DNA of 64,000 nucleotides. Source: Cellulosimicrobium sp. Marseille-Q4280. Its GTDB lineage: Bacteria; Actinomycetota; Actinomycetes; Actinomycetales; Cellulomonadaceae. Shown piece by piece: positions 15,280-31,423 of the stretch. The stretch lies in the NCBI RefSeq assembly GCF_943181405.1, contig NZ_CALPBY010000005.1:186001-250000 (forward strand), written 5' to 3'. The notes beneath the pieces were generated by a model. The model did no database searches and was not told the origin of the DNA. It worked only from the letters and a program-made list of their open reading frames with translations. How positions within the stretch are numbered: position 1 is the first letter of the stretch; every line of letters starts with the position of its first letter. Position numbers and translations under genes: made by a program.

Positions 15280-16482
15280 TCAGCCCGCCGTCACGTCGTG
15301 GTCGGTGAAACGGTCCGTGAAGAGGTCCCCGGCCGCGACGTCGCCCAGGTCGCTCCCCTCGCCGGCGAGCACCTCGACGAGGTCCGCGACGAACGCGTCG
15401 ACCCGCGCCATGTCGTACGTGCTGACGGACCCGTCGTCCTCCGGAGCGAGCAGACCCTCGTCGACGAGCGTCTCCGCGCTGTACGCAGCCTCGCCCGCGG
15501 AGTACGGCGAGTAGGAGCCGTCCTGCTCGACGACGCCCACGATGATCTCGTTCACCGCGTCCGGCGAGGCGGCGTAGTCGGCGTTGGCCTGCTGGATCAT
15601 CGGCACGAGCAGCTCGAGGCACGGCGCGAGCTCGTCGAGCCGGTCCGCGCGGACGGACACGTTGGACGCGTACACGTCGTACCCGGCGTCCTTGACGTAG
15701 GCGAACCCGACGGGCTTCGCCCACGCCGGGGTCTCGTGCTCGTAGGTGTACGGCTCCGAGTTGCCGAAGCCCTGCTGGACGACGGTCGGGTCGCCCACGA
15801 ACCGTGCAGGGTTGCCGTCGTAGCTCGTGTCGACCTGGTCGGCGTCGAGGAGGTCGTGCGCGACCATCCACGCGGGGTAGATCTGGTCCGCGGAGACGAC
15901 CACCGGGGCGCCCGAGGCCTGCACGTCCTCGATGCCGGTGAGCTCCGGGTGGGACTCGGGGTCCCACATGAGGATCGCCGGGCTGTGCTTGAGCAGCGGC
16001 GCGACCCCGACGACGGGCGCCTCGGCCGCCGCCGCGACGAGCTGGTCGCCGTGCACGAGCCCCACGGTGATCGCGTCGTCGACGTACATCTGCGACGGCA
16101 CGGACTGGAACCCGATCGCCGGGCCGCCGGCGCGCAGCGTGAGCGCCACGCCGGTGTCCTCGCCGCCGGAGACGAGCGGGCCGGTGACCGAGTGCTGCTC
16201 GGCGTCGACCGTCCACCCGTCGCCGAGCAGCCCGAACACGCCGCCCTGGTCGGACTGCGGCTGCCACTGGAGCTGGACGACGACCTCGTCCGGGCACGTC
16301 CCGGCGAGGACGCCGTCGCCGGACGCGGCGGCCGTACCGGACGCGTCGGCCGCGGAGCCCGGCTCGGTGGCGTCGCCGCACGCGGACAGGACGAGGAGAC
16401 CGACGACGGCGACCGGCAGCGTGCCGAGGCGCGTGCGGGAACGACGTGGGGGAACGGTGCGGGCGGTGCGGGGCGTGACCAT
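15280..16482 (-). CDS. Orphan NMT1/ThiY-like ABC substrate-binding lipoprotein
   Basis: This 400-residue lipoprotein has a basic N-terminus, a hydrophobic segment and the lipobox VLSAC (lipidated Cys about 35). The mature part is collinear with the binding protein at 26894-28084: shared blocks include WQPxSxxG near residue 75, MWDPESH, a QQGF...EPYxYE block and WAKPVG. Such proteins usually deliver pyrimidine-like or sulfonate-like solutes to SsuC/ThiX-type permeases. No permease or ATPase gene adjoins it, so it may use the transporter at 28174-29999. It is divergent from the 2OG oxygenase gene, sharing a 201-bp promoter region. Confidence 0.85.
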   Translation of the reverse strand: MVTPRTARTVPPRRSRTRLGTLPVAVVGLLVLSACGDATEPGSAADASGTAAASGDGVLAGTCPDEVVVQLQWQPQSDQGGVFGLLGDGWTVDAEQHSVTGPLVSGGEDTGVALTLRAGGPAIGFQSVPSQMYVDDAITVGLVHGDQLVAAAAEAPVVGVAPLLKHSPAILMWDPESHPELTGIEDVQASGAPVVVSADQIYPAWMVAHDLLDADQVDTSYDGNPARFVGDPTVVQQGFGNSEPYTYEHETPAWAKPVGFAYVKDAGYDVYASNVSVRADRLDELAPCLELLVPMIQQANADYAASPDAVNEIIVGVVEQDGSYSPYSAGEAAYSAETLVDEGLLAPEDDGSVSTYDMARVDAFVADLVEVLAGEGSDLGDVAAGDLFTDRFTDHDVTAG

Positions 16483-16580
16483 GGTGGCGCTCGCTCTCTG
16501 ACGGGGGCGTGACGACGCTCACTCTGGCGCCCGAACGATGACATGCAATCTCCATCTGGTTTCGGGACTGTAAAACCTCG

Positions 16581-16597
16581 ATCGCATACCGCGATGC
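16581..16597. promoter_or_regulatory. Palindrome in the divergent promoter of the binding protein and oxygenase
   Basis: ATCGC-ATACC-GCGAT (16581-16595), overlapping GCAT-N6-ATGC, is an inverted repeat in the middle of the 201-bp divergent region. A TTGACG (16601-16606) beside it could be a -35 for the oxygenase gene. A GntR regulator gene is downstream, so this is a plausible operator, by position only. Confidence 0.35.
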
Positions 16598-16683
16598 CCC
16601 TTGACGGCACTAGGCCGTGCTGGATTACATGGCATCACCGTCCAGCGACACCGCCAGGGACCGGACCTCCAGAGGGAGTCACC

Positions 16684-29228: not shown

Positions 29229-29999
29229 TCACGAGTGCTCCCCGAGGGCGGCGGACACCTCGCCGGTCAGCGCGGCGAACTCGGGCTCGAAGCGCAGCTC
29301 CGGCGGGCGGGGGTAGGCCCACGGCACGGGGATGTCCGCCACGATGCGACCGGGACGGCCGCTCATCACGAGGACGCGCGTGGACAGGTAGACGGCCTCG
29401 GACACCGAGTGGGTGATGAACAGCCCGGCGAACTCCTTGAGGGCGAACAGCCTCTGGAGCTCGGTCTGCAGGTGCAGGCGGGTGATCTCGTCGAGTGCGC
29501 CGAACGGCTCGTCGAAGAGCGCGAGGTCGGGCTCGGCGACGAGCGCCCGGGCGATCGAGACGCGCATGCGCATGCCGCCCGAGAGCTGGCGCGGGTGCTG
29601 CTTCTCGAACCCGGTGAGCCCGACGAGGTCGAGCGCCTCCTGCGCGGCCCGCCGCCGGTCGGCCTTGCCGACACCGCGCAGCTCGCCGACGAGCTCGACG
29701 TTGCGCAGCGCGCTGCGCCACTCGAGGAGCGTCGCCTCCTGGAAGACGTACGACGTCGAGTGCGCGTTGACCTCGATGCTGCCGCCGCTCACGTCGTCGA
29801 GCCCGGACGCGAGCCGCAGCAGCGTGGACTTGCCGCAGCCGGACGGCCCGACGACGGAGACGAACTCCCCCGCCGAGACGCTCAGGCTCACGTCCTCGAG
29901 CGCGACGGTGCCGGTGGCGAACTGCTTGGTCACGTCGTCGAGCACGAGCGTGCGCGTCATGGAACGGGGTCGCGTGGTCGTGGTGCTCACTGGTGTCAC
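29229..29999 (-). CDS. ABC transporter ATP-binding protein
   Basis: The 256-residue ATPase has Walker A GPSGCGKST, Q-loop YVFQEATLLEW, signature LSGGMRMRVSIARAL and Walker B LALFDEPFGALDE, with the switch His in FITHSVSEAV. It belongs to the nitrate/sulfonate/taurine-type importer group. GTG 29999 overlaps the stop of the cytosine-deaminase-like gene; an internal ATG at 29960 would fit the conserved start of the family better and is an alternative. Confidence 0.93.
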   Translation of the reverse strand: MTPVSTTTTRPRSMTRTLVLDDVTKQFATGTVALEDVSLSVSAGEFVSVVGPSGCGKSTLLRLASGLDDVSGGSIEVNAHSTSYVFQEATLLEWRSALRNVELVGELRGVGKADRRRAAQEALDLVGLTGFEKQHPRQLSGGMRMRVSIARALVAEPDLALFDEPFGALDEITRLHLQTELQRLFALKEFAGLFITHSVSEAVYLSTRVLVMSGRPGRIVADIPVPWAYPRPPELRFEPEFAALTGEVSAALGEHS

Positions 30000-31366
30000 C
30001 TCACGAGCTGGTCGGGCCGGTGGGCCGCGGGCGCGGCATCCCGGGAGTGCGGGTCGGTGGGCCGGGTCGCGACGGGGTCGAGCGCGAGGGCGCGGGTGAC
30101 GCGCGTGTCCGCGACCACGCGCCCGCCGCTCAGGACGACGCGCGCGTGCTCGCCACCGGCGAGGACCTCGCCGAGCGCGGCGTCGGGGACGAGGACGAGG
30201 TCGGCCCGCTGCCCCACCGCCACGCCTGCCGGCGGCAGGCCGAGCACGGTGCGTGCGCCCGCGGTGACGGCGTCGAGCGCCTCGCGGGCCGTGAGGTGCG
30301 CGGCCGTCATCAGGAGGGACGTCGTCTCGAAGGGGTCGCAGGTGCCCACGGGGTTGAAGGGGTCGCGGACGTTGTCGGCCCCGGCGGCCACGGGGACGCC
30401 TGCGTCGATCAGCGCACGGACGGCGGTGAGCCCGCGCGGGGCCAGGTGCGTGGCGTCGCGGCCCTGGAGGTACAGGTTCGTGATCGGCAGCGTGACGACC
30501 CCGAGCCCGGCCCGCGCCACCAGGTCGACGAGCGGGACGAGCCGTTCGGGCGGCAGCGCGCCGAGCCGGACGGCGTGGCTCGCCGTGACGCGCTGCTCGA
30601 GGCCGCGCGCGATCACCTGGAGCGCGACGTCCTCGACGTCGAGGAGCCCGCCCGCCGGGAGCGTGGTCTGCTCGTCGGCGTGCAGGTCGACCGGGAGCCC
30701 GGTGCGCTCCGCGAGGTCCAGGACGCGCCGGATCTCGACCGCCGGGTCAGGCGCGAGGTGGGGGCAGCCGCCCAGGACGTCGACGCCGCGTGCCACGGCC
30801 TCCGCGTAGACGGCGTCGCTCGTGTGCGAGCCGCCGAGCAGGCAGACCTGGAGGGTGACGGAGCCCGCGAGCTCGTCCCGCAAACCGAGCAGGGCGTCGA
30901 GCATGCGCAGCGGGTCCCCGACCGCAGGGGCGTCGACGTGGGTGCGGATCGTCGTGATGCCCCGCGCGACGTAGCGCTCGACGGCGCGGCGCGCACGGTC
31001 GGCCACGTCGGCACCGTCGATGCCCGGTGCGAGCTCGCGCCAGCGCGCGACGGCGCCGACCAGGTCCTCGCCCCCACCGGGGTCGAGGCGCGAGGCCGTG
31101 AGGGTCTTGTCGAGGTGTGCGTGCGGCTCGCACGCGGCGGGCAGCGCGAGCCAGCCGCGGGCGTCGAGGAGCAGCCCGGGCACAGCGGCGGCGTCCCGGG
31201 TCGCGGTGGCCGAGACCGCGACGACGCGGCCGTCGGCGATCCGGAGGTCGACGGTGCGGCCGTCCACCGTGCGGACCCCGAGCACGCCGGTGACGTCCGC
31301 GCCGGCGAGCGTCGCGGCGCCGTCGGGCGCGCCGACCGGAAGGACCGCTGCCTCGTCGTGGTGCAC
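29996..31366 (-). CDS. Cytosine-deaminase-like amidohydrolase
   Basis: The 456-residue enzyme has the metal pair in [12 protein letters not shown] (H82, H84), [15 protein letters not shown], a [11 protein letters not shown]is and [11 protein letters not shown] with the catalytic Asp. Together these give the CodA-like layout. It should deaminate or hydrolyse a pyrimidine or related ring. GTG 31366 has GGAGG four bases before it. It is the first gene of the transport/catabolic operon and lies about 40 bp after the 31405-31423 operator. Confidence 0.88.
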
Positions 31367-31404
31367 ACCGCCTCCTCTCCGTCGTGTGGACGGACTCGCA
31401 GAAA

Positions 31405-31423
31405 ATGTTGATCAGAGGAACAT
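31405..31423. promoter_or_regulatory. 19-bp operator-like repeat before the transport operon
   Basis: ATGTT-GATCAGAGG-AACAT has the same end sequences and 9-bp spacing as the perfect palindrome at 22554-22572, including the left half-site ATGTTGAT. It lies in the 140-bp divergent gap between the deaminase-headed operon and mshD. The same XRE-cupin regulator probably binds both. Confidence 0.6.

Follow-up and report, generated by a model that had tools for sequence, protein, structure and literature searches.

We describe here two predicted operons in a 64,000-nucleotide stretch of contig NZ_CALPBY010000005.1 of Cellulosimicrobium sp. Marseille-Q4280 (hereafter the window), which on balance probably form a nitrogen-limitation catabolic regulon for a nucleobase-like heterocycle. 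Operon is used here for closely spaced or overlapping genes on one strand, as predicted from sequence. Operon 1 runs on the minus strand from 31366 to 23290 in the order O-N-M-L-K-J-I; operon 2, also on the minus strand, has the order G-F-E and ends at 19068, and gene H is divergent from G on the plus strand. A third block (15280-18378) holds the genes for a binding protein (A, minus strand), a 2-oxoglutarate (2OG) oxygenase (B, plus strand) and a GntR regulator (C, plus strand). The three amidohydrolases, the creatininase, the flavin reductase, the 2OG/Fe(II) oxygenase and the GntR-FCD and XRE-cupin regulators named in an earlier sequence-only analysis of this DNA (the original prediction) were all recovered with Pfam. 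The basis for the proposed regulon is gene content, co-occurrence, shared promoter signals and residue states, and a nucleobase-like substrate is favoured because of the types of amidohydrolase encoded, the pairing with a symporter seen in relatives, and the purine genes that share a promoter box with the two operons.

Two signals are found at both operon promoters (Table 1). The first is a palindrome, ATGTT-N9-AACAT, which was exposed by aligning the O promoters of seven close relatives; its exact form occurs at two places in the 4.86-Mb genome, both of them here, while a reversed control pattern occurs at none. Across 59 related loci, 33 palindrome sites were found in 20, each lying within the 250 bp that precede a cluster gene set. 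Three of these sites stand before the gene of a luciferase-type monooxygenase, located between H and J; no palindrome appeared in 300 block shuffles of 15 loci. An H-type gene stands beside such palindromes in many loci. The second signal is a nitrogen-type box, GTNAC-N6-GAAAC, which lies upstream of both window palindromes at distances of 21 and 22 bp and has no other site in the 64 kb. When 24 hand-picked palindrome sites were inspected (22 from the related loci, out of 33, plus the two in the window), 15 had the looser GNNAC-N6-GNAAC upstream, in L051 at another offset, and nine lacked it, missing by one base as judged by eye. Control by a riboswitch was considered and rejected, the Rfam matches being one tRNA only in the window and none in six related loci.

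The strict box has 12 sites genome-wide, as against one for a control pattern. It starts 118 bp before glnA (glutamine synthetase) of the same genome, it lies 88 bp before a gene for a Xan_ur_permease (xanthine/uracil permease), within the end of the preceding gene, and one copy is located between the MoaA and XdhC genes. The box at these three places (L192, L197, L198) suggests nitrogen control of purine use in the organism itself. The best clues to the class of substrate are the nucleobase-transport and purine genes found close to this box and to B-type oxygenases.

The gene-neighbourhood check put forward in the original prediction was answered positively, in that homologous genes do co-occur in both Actinomycetota and Pseudomonadota. 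In the Actinomycetota, 44 named loci were fetched with L alone and ortholog groups were counted in them, some loci being cut by contig ends. M and N are each present in 39 (other ATPases may be included in the N group), K and J each in 32, O in 31 (with five more in a second group), H in 30 and I in 24, and recurring neighbours encode PNPOx-like (20), MTHFR-like (16), FTCD_C (13) and Fer2 reductase (13) proteins. Two Occultella loci and one of Ruania also contain genes for an isochorismatase, an AtzH-amidase fusion, an MBL-fold protein and an FmdA acetamidase/formamidase, a set which recurs in part in the clusters of three further families. Five loci from metagenome-assembled genomes (L053-L057) hold remote relatives of L (as two tandem copies), M, N, O and E, with no K or J, next to M24, RibD_C-like, luciferase-type and flavodoxin-type genes. 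In a sample of 394 genomes from the class (G000 included), with the four best candidates per genome scored, L was found in 42, K in 25 and I in five (E 1e-60); when the lists were compared, all 25 K genomes held L, and all five I genomes held both K and L. Distances to 31 of the class-wide L matches placed 21 of 26 K genes within 900 bp of an L match and two about 5 kb away, with three having no L on their contig. Since this gene order recurs in many genomes, it is not put down to chance.

The same core is found in plasmid records of Pseudomonadota. Of six hand-picked loci (Rhizobium tumorigenes, Paroceanicella, Nitratireductor, Sulfitobacter, R. etli and Agrobacterium), every one has relatives of L, M, N, O, K and J, with identities of 33-43% for J, 28-32% for K and 29-34% for O, and N is 44.5-60% identical to the ATPases of six proteobacterial clusters compared. 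In Sulfitobacter and Paroceanicella, a 2OG oxygenase gene (36% identity to B) adjoins the creatininase gene. In Rahnella and Klebsiella the order is FAD (flavin adenine dinucleotide) oxidase, transporter, creatininase, RidA, CodA-like amidohydrolase, VanB-type reductase and LysR, followed by a second binding protein, a deaminase-like amidohydrolase and a 2OG oxygenase with 59% identity to B. That the oxygenase is kept beside the core in these two genera is the best evidence that the B block may belong functionally with operon 1, the link being one of gene neighbourhood only (L019, Rahnella, Klebsiella). The second amidohydrolase of Rahnella, Klebsiella, Pantoea and Qingshengfaniella shows 34-39% identity to an annotated 8-oxoguanine deaminase. 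On a Streptomyces plasmid an oxygenase 68% identical to B is paired with a nucleobase:cation symporter gene, and a gene for such a symporter also lies near the oxygenase gene in Qingshengfaniella. Beside O-K-J on R. etli pC are two isochorismatase genes, a gene annotated as allophanate hydrolase and a sugar-type ABC (ATP-binding cassette) transporter; on that replicon only, these neighbours resemble the triuret/biuret catabolism genes (trtA, biuH, bmpA-nupABC) set out in PMC12625717, and no such gene was found in the window cluster. The R. etli neighbours are a further hint of a purine-side substrate.

In the mechanism that we propose, a GlnR-type global activator, suggested by the box, would switch on both promoters under nitrogen limitation, and H, sitting at the palindrome just downstream, would keep them repressed until its cupin domain is occupied by a compound of the pathway. 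The compound taken up by L-M-N would be cyclic, the likeliest candidates being a modified nucleobase and a heterocycle derived from a purine or pyrimidine. It would be oxidised by K and F with G (and perhaps by B, the 2OG oxygenase encoded in the third block), while O, E and I together with J would strip ring amino or alkyl groups, open cyclic amides and release ammonia. In relatives, one-carbon and amide/ureide leftovers would pass to folate-type enzymes, formamidase, isochorismatase-type enzymes and amidase. The import, oxidation and hydrolysis steps follow from the protein families, and we infer the identities of the regulators, the order of the steps and the class of substrate. In Mycobacterium smegmatis, nitrogen limitation is reported to induce a creatininase-subfamily gene along with formamidase and purine genes (PMC4617892). 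The model can be tested directly, since the paired promoter signals point to the conditions under which the genes would be expressed and to the regulator involved.

Several observations weigh against this proposal. Operon 2 is patchy among the 44 loci, with G in nine, F in four and E in 10 (plus five remote), and a strong-scoring L is found in only two of 17 genomes of the genus, G000 included. The exact palindrome is absent from 39 of the 59 scanned loci, several Microbacterium loci carry only a diverged form with three to four mismatches at the O and MTHFR promoters, and the sites are not independent, since the 20 positive loci include many from close relatives. As for the box, its resemblance is to what we take to be the GlnR consensus, and of the seven remaining genomic copies three face AAA ATPase, GH92 and GFO/IDH genes with no evident nitrogen link and four have no assigned gene. 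A and E themselves have no more than remote counterparts in the second binding protein and amidohydrolase of Rahnella and Klebsiella. The original prediction had tentatively placed the whole region in one uptake-and-breakdown regulon for a nitrogen-containing compound, a view which cross-phylum co-occurrence and the two shared signals support for operons 1 and 2 but not for block A-B-C, where neither palindrome nor box was found. The sequence of steps proposed there, oxidation with subsequent ring opening and deamination, is likewise putative.

Among the alternatives, ordinary pyrimidine salvage or breakdown, in which O would act on cytosine or 5-methylcytosine, B on thymine and the rest in a Rut-like manner, is judged unlikely. 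O is nearest to the cytosine deaminases, and thymine dioxygenase is the best solved relative of B, in which HTD at 211 and FHRV at 272 supply the HxD...H residues that make up the metal motif of 2OG oxygenases. RutA belongs to the luciferase-type monooxygenase family, and genes of this type occur in three actinobacterial clusters (L132, L133, L144; one scanned) and beside a remote relative; as in the Rut pathway, a flavin reductase, an isochorismatase-type hydrolase and a Rid protein are among the genes of the wider family. The window differs from that pathway in having no luciferase-type (RutA-type) oxygenase among the proteins scanned and FAD_binding_4 oxidases instead, the RutF match of G is weak (76.4 bits against a cut-off of 254.75), and many of the enzymes would be left without a role.

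The residues of O also speak against this route. Its score falls below the NCBIfam cytosine deaminase cut-offs. Like the CodA/AtzC cluster, O retains the HxH motif, the beta-5 and beta-6 His and the beta-8 Asp, these metal-site His and Asp positions being kept in all 46 copies counted (copies of 380 residues or fewer were excluded), and the catalytic Glu in 45 of 46. Unlike that cluster, 45 of the 46 have Asn in place of the Asp that follows the beta-8 Asp, and the beta-3 Gln is found in one copy of 46 and in none of the eight proteobacterial ones, the window copy having Gly, in a gapped stretch of the alignment where the exact partner is unsure. In CodA this Gln holds the exocyclic oxygen, and its replacement by Asn or Ala inactivates the enzyme, according to PMC12828455. 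Because a residue needed in CodA is nearly absent, the label 'cytosine deaminase' for O is probably wrong, and plain cytosine deamination by O was rejected. In E the metal ligands are canonical in all 16 rows compared, of which five come from remote relatives.

Breakdown of creatinine or N-methylhydantoin, with O as a creatinine deaminase, J opening the hydantoin and the one-carbon genes taking the N-methyl group, we regard as quite unlikely. J is of the creatininase family and is the sole Pfam creatininase match in the genome, MTHFR-like and FTCD-like genes lie beside relatives, and five loci whose L, O and E relatives are remote carry M24 genes (creatinase/prolidase type). N-carbamoylsarcosine amidase has an isochorismatase-type fold, and an isochorismatase-type hydrolase is present in some relatives. 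J, however, reaches 102.7 bits against an NCBIfam creatininase cut-off of 235, a shortfall on which a creatinine-only pathway was rejected; the five M24 loci lack K and J, no M24 protein is among the window proteins scanned, and K, F, E, I and B would have no role. J is also below the MftE cut-off (139.8 against 172 bits), and a mycofactocin system was rejected, the genome's best match to the radical SAM protein MftC scoring 44.3 bits against a cut-off of 265.

Breakdown of the thiamine pyrimidine (hydroxymethylpyrimidine, HMP) is very unlikely. Here an NMT1-like system would import HMP, O would deaminate it and K would oxidise the hydroxymethyl group before amide release, and NMT1/THI5-like hints in L and A and the FmdA acetamidase/formamidase beside relatives are in keeping with it. 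The NMT1-like transporter and extra binding protein of the original prediction were found as ATPase N, permease M, L and A, but the Pfam NMT1 scores of L (12.4 bits) and A (16.3 bits) lie under the cut-off of 20.5. No thiamine pyrophosphate riboswitch was found in the window or in six related loci, and no thiamine gene among the cluster proteins scanned. L and A share 42% identity. On two further contigs (G293 C346 and G072 C396) an L-family binding-protein gene lies directly beside an amidohydrolase gene, with no K match on either contig.

The oxidation step of the proposed nucleobase-like pathway would fall to K and F. The solved relative 6v42 is matched by K over residues 32-456 (E 5e-49). 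The two FAD oxidoreductases, which the original prediction had called different, have different best NCBIfam matches but belong to the same Pfam family, FAD_binding_4. A Rieske partner was sought in the genome itself, and of three matches none lies within the window. In genome G148 (L141, 20 kb), two K-like oxidase genes are found about 11 kb apart in one cluster.

The last gene of operon 1, I, has an unusual metal site. In all 29 copies aligned, Gln stands at the beta-5 metal His position and Ser at the beta-8 Asp position, whereas the beta-5 His and beta-8 Asp are both kept in 28 of 28 other actinobacterial amidohydrolases and in three of three comparison proteins; I does retain the beta-1 HxH and the Gln that follows it, together with the catalytic Glu and the beta-6 His. 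For this alignment, two of 30 loci without a usable frame were dropped, copies of I of 380 residues or fewer and of E of 400 or fewer were excluded, and rows from L132-L146 had no length filter. The chemistry hinted at in the original prediction changes, in that O is probably no usual cytosine deaminase and I is without two canonical metal ligands. I departs from the amidohydrolase superfamily subtype III deaminases (the GuaD/8-oxoguanine cluster) in that the beta-5 His and beta-8 Asp are both missing from all copies. An 8-oxoguanine deaminase model is matched below its cut-off of 532 bits by I (253) and E (169), and I is without the beta-8 Asp, which PMC13054789, the source for the 8-oxoguanine/N2,N2-dimethylguanine hydrolase cluster, gives as more than 99% conserved in the AtzB and guanine-deaminase clusters.

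The best solved match of I is TrzN, encoded on a plasmid of Paenarthrobacter aurescens TC1, at about 35% identity over 76% of I. Both proteins lack the beta-8 Asp and have the catalytic Glu along with the HxH of beta-1 and the His of beta-6, and the Thr that TrzN has at the beta-8 Asp position is described as unique in the superfamily in PMC4356373. They differ in that Thr325 of TrzN is Ser in all 29 copies of I, while His238 (beta-5) and the Glu at position 68 of TrzN are both Gln in I. In a tree, TrzN was sister to I with support of 95/87, both branches exceeding 1.6 changes per site and the tool warning that joins may be false, so that the grouping is regarded as a lead. It is conceivable, if doubtful, that I represents a natural amidohydrolase subgroup with an undescribed metal site (beta-5 Gln, beta-8 Ser), which would carry out one step of a widespread and undescribed modified-nucleobase pathway and share an ancestor with TrzN. 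If true, a natural pathway would explain the origin of the unusual metal site of this herbicide hydrolase, and I would widen the range of metal sites known in the amidohydrolase superfamily, besides being a concrete candidate for natural kin of TrzN. A xenobiotic s-triazine pathway, in which I would be TrzN-like, O AtzC-like and the relatives would add AtzH/AtzE-type genes, is highly improbable: the TrzN match of I, AtzC-type matches for O and the AtzH-like amidase fusion beside relatives are in its favour, but the divergence is far too great for a recent herbicide pathway, the identity of K being about 45% from one actinobacterial group to another and about 30% from phylum to phylum, and the residues of I differ from those of TrzN.

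No description of the cluster, of its two-signal control or of the metal site of I was found among the papers that searches of an open-access library listed, judged for the cluster by title and opening of the abstract, which is weak evidence of novelty because subscription journals were mostly outside it. Each family is already known, and it is the combination, the two-signal control and the metal site of I that may be new as far as that literature shows. A gene set common to actinomycetes, rhizobia, marine alphaproteobacteria and enterobacteria, for which the searches turned up no substrate, shows that part of organic nitrogen use is still uncharted.

Genes were re-called from the raw sequence, with frames picked by family matches and codon-position G+C (Table 1). 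The original prediction had reported two minus-strand operons with start/stop overlaps; the overlaps agree with the coordinates (4 bp for O/N, J/I, G/F and F/E, and 1 bp for K/J), but not all genes of the region are on the minus strand, B, C, D and H being on the plus strand. The GTG at 22641 is unlikely to be where G really begins, since that longer open reading frame (ORF) would take in both the palindrome and the nitrogen-type box.

Table 1. Genes and proposed promoter signals of the cluster, in window coordinates.
Feature	Assignment	Position	Strand	Basis or remark
Box, operon 1	nitrogen-type (GlnR-like) box GTTACGCGGCCGAAAC	31445..31460	-	
Palindrome, operon 1 promoter	proposed operator, ATGTT-N9-AACAT	31405..31423	.	
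O	CodA-like amidohydrolase, first of operon 1	29996..31366	-	Pfam Amidohydro_3, 90 bits
N	ABC transporter ATPase	29229..29999	-	Pfam ABC_tran
M	ABC transporter permease	28174..29163	-	Pfam BPD_transp_1; start set by inspection
L	substrate-binding lipoprotein, weakly NMT1-like	26894..28084	-	Pfam NMT1 below cut-off
K	FAD-binding oxidase	25490..26884	-	Pfam FAD_binding_4; solved relative 6v42
J	creatininase-family amidohydrolase	24669..25490	-	Pfam, 229 bits (longer ORF)
I	amidohydrolase, beta-5 His->Gln, beta-8 Asp->Ser, last of operon 1	23290..24672	-	Pfam, alignment
H	XRE-cupin regulator	22695..23321	+	Pfam HTH_31 and Cupin_2
Box, operon 2	nitrogen-type (GlnR-like) box GTGACGCGAGCGAAAC	22595..22610	-	
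Palindrome, promoter of operon 2 and H	proposed operator, ATGTTGATGTCATCAACAT	22554..22572	.	
G	flavin reductase, first of operon 2	22021..22539 (start uncertain; longest ORF to 22641)	-	Pfam Flavin_Reduct, 130 bits
F	second FAD_binding_4 oxidase	20510..22024	-	Pfam
E	amidohydrolase, canonical metal ligands, last of operon 2	19068..20513	-	Pfam Amidohydro_1
D	no Pfam assignment	18408..19061	+	
C	GntR-FCD regulator, third block	17707..18378	+	Pfam
B	2OG-Fe(II) oxygenase	16684..17673	+	Pfam
A	second binding protein, paralogue of L	15280..16482	-	NMT1 below cut-off

The cluster is flanked at 32609-38815 by a block of polyphosphate kinase, NUDIX/His-phosphatase and PhoU-like genes, and look-alike groups, as judged by size and first residues, are found in Krasilnikoviella, Promicromonospora and C. 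arenosum (L015-L017, L019, L025, L045). Because similar polyphosphate kinase-type blocks flank the clusters of relatives, the place of the cluster seems to be conserved, although most genomes of the same genus are without L. Elsewhere in the window, a GH5 cellulase with a CBM2 domain is encoded at 10862-12598, and a sugar-transporter ORF of 824 residues, of which the first 360 or so have no Pfam match and the start may be wrong, is located at 39180-41654.

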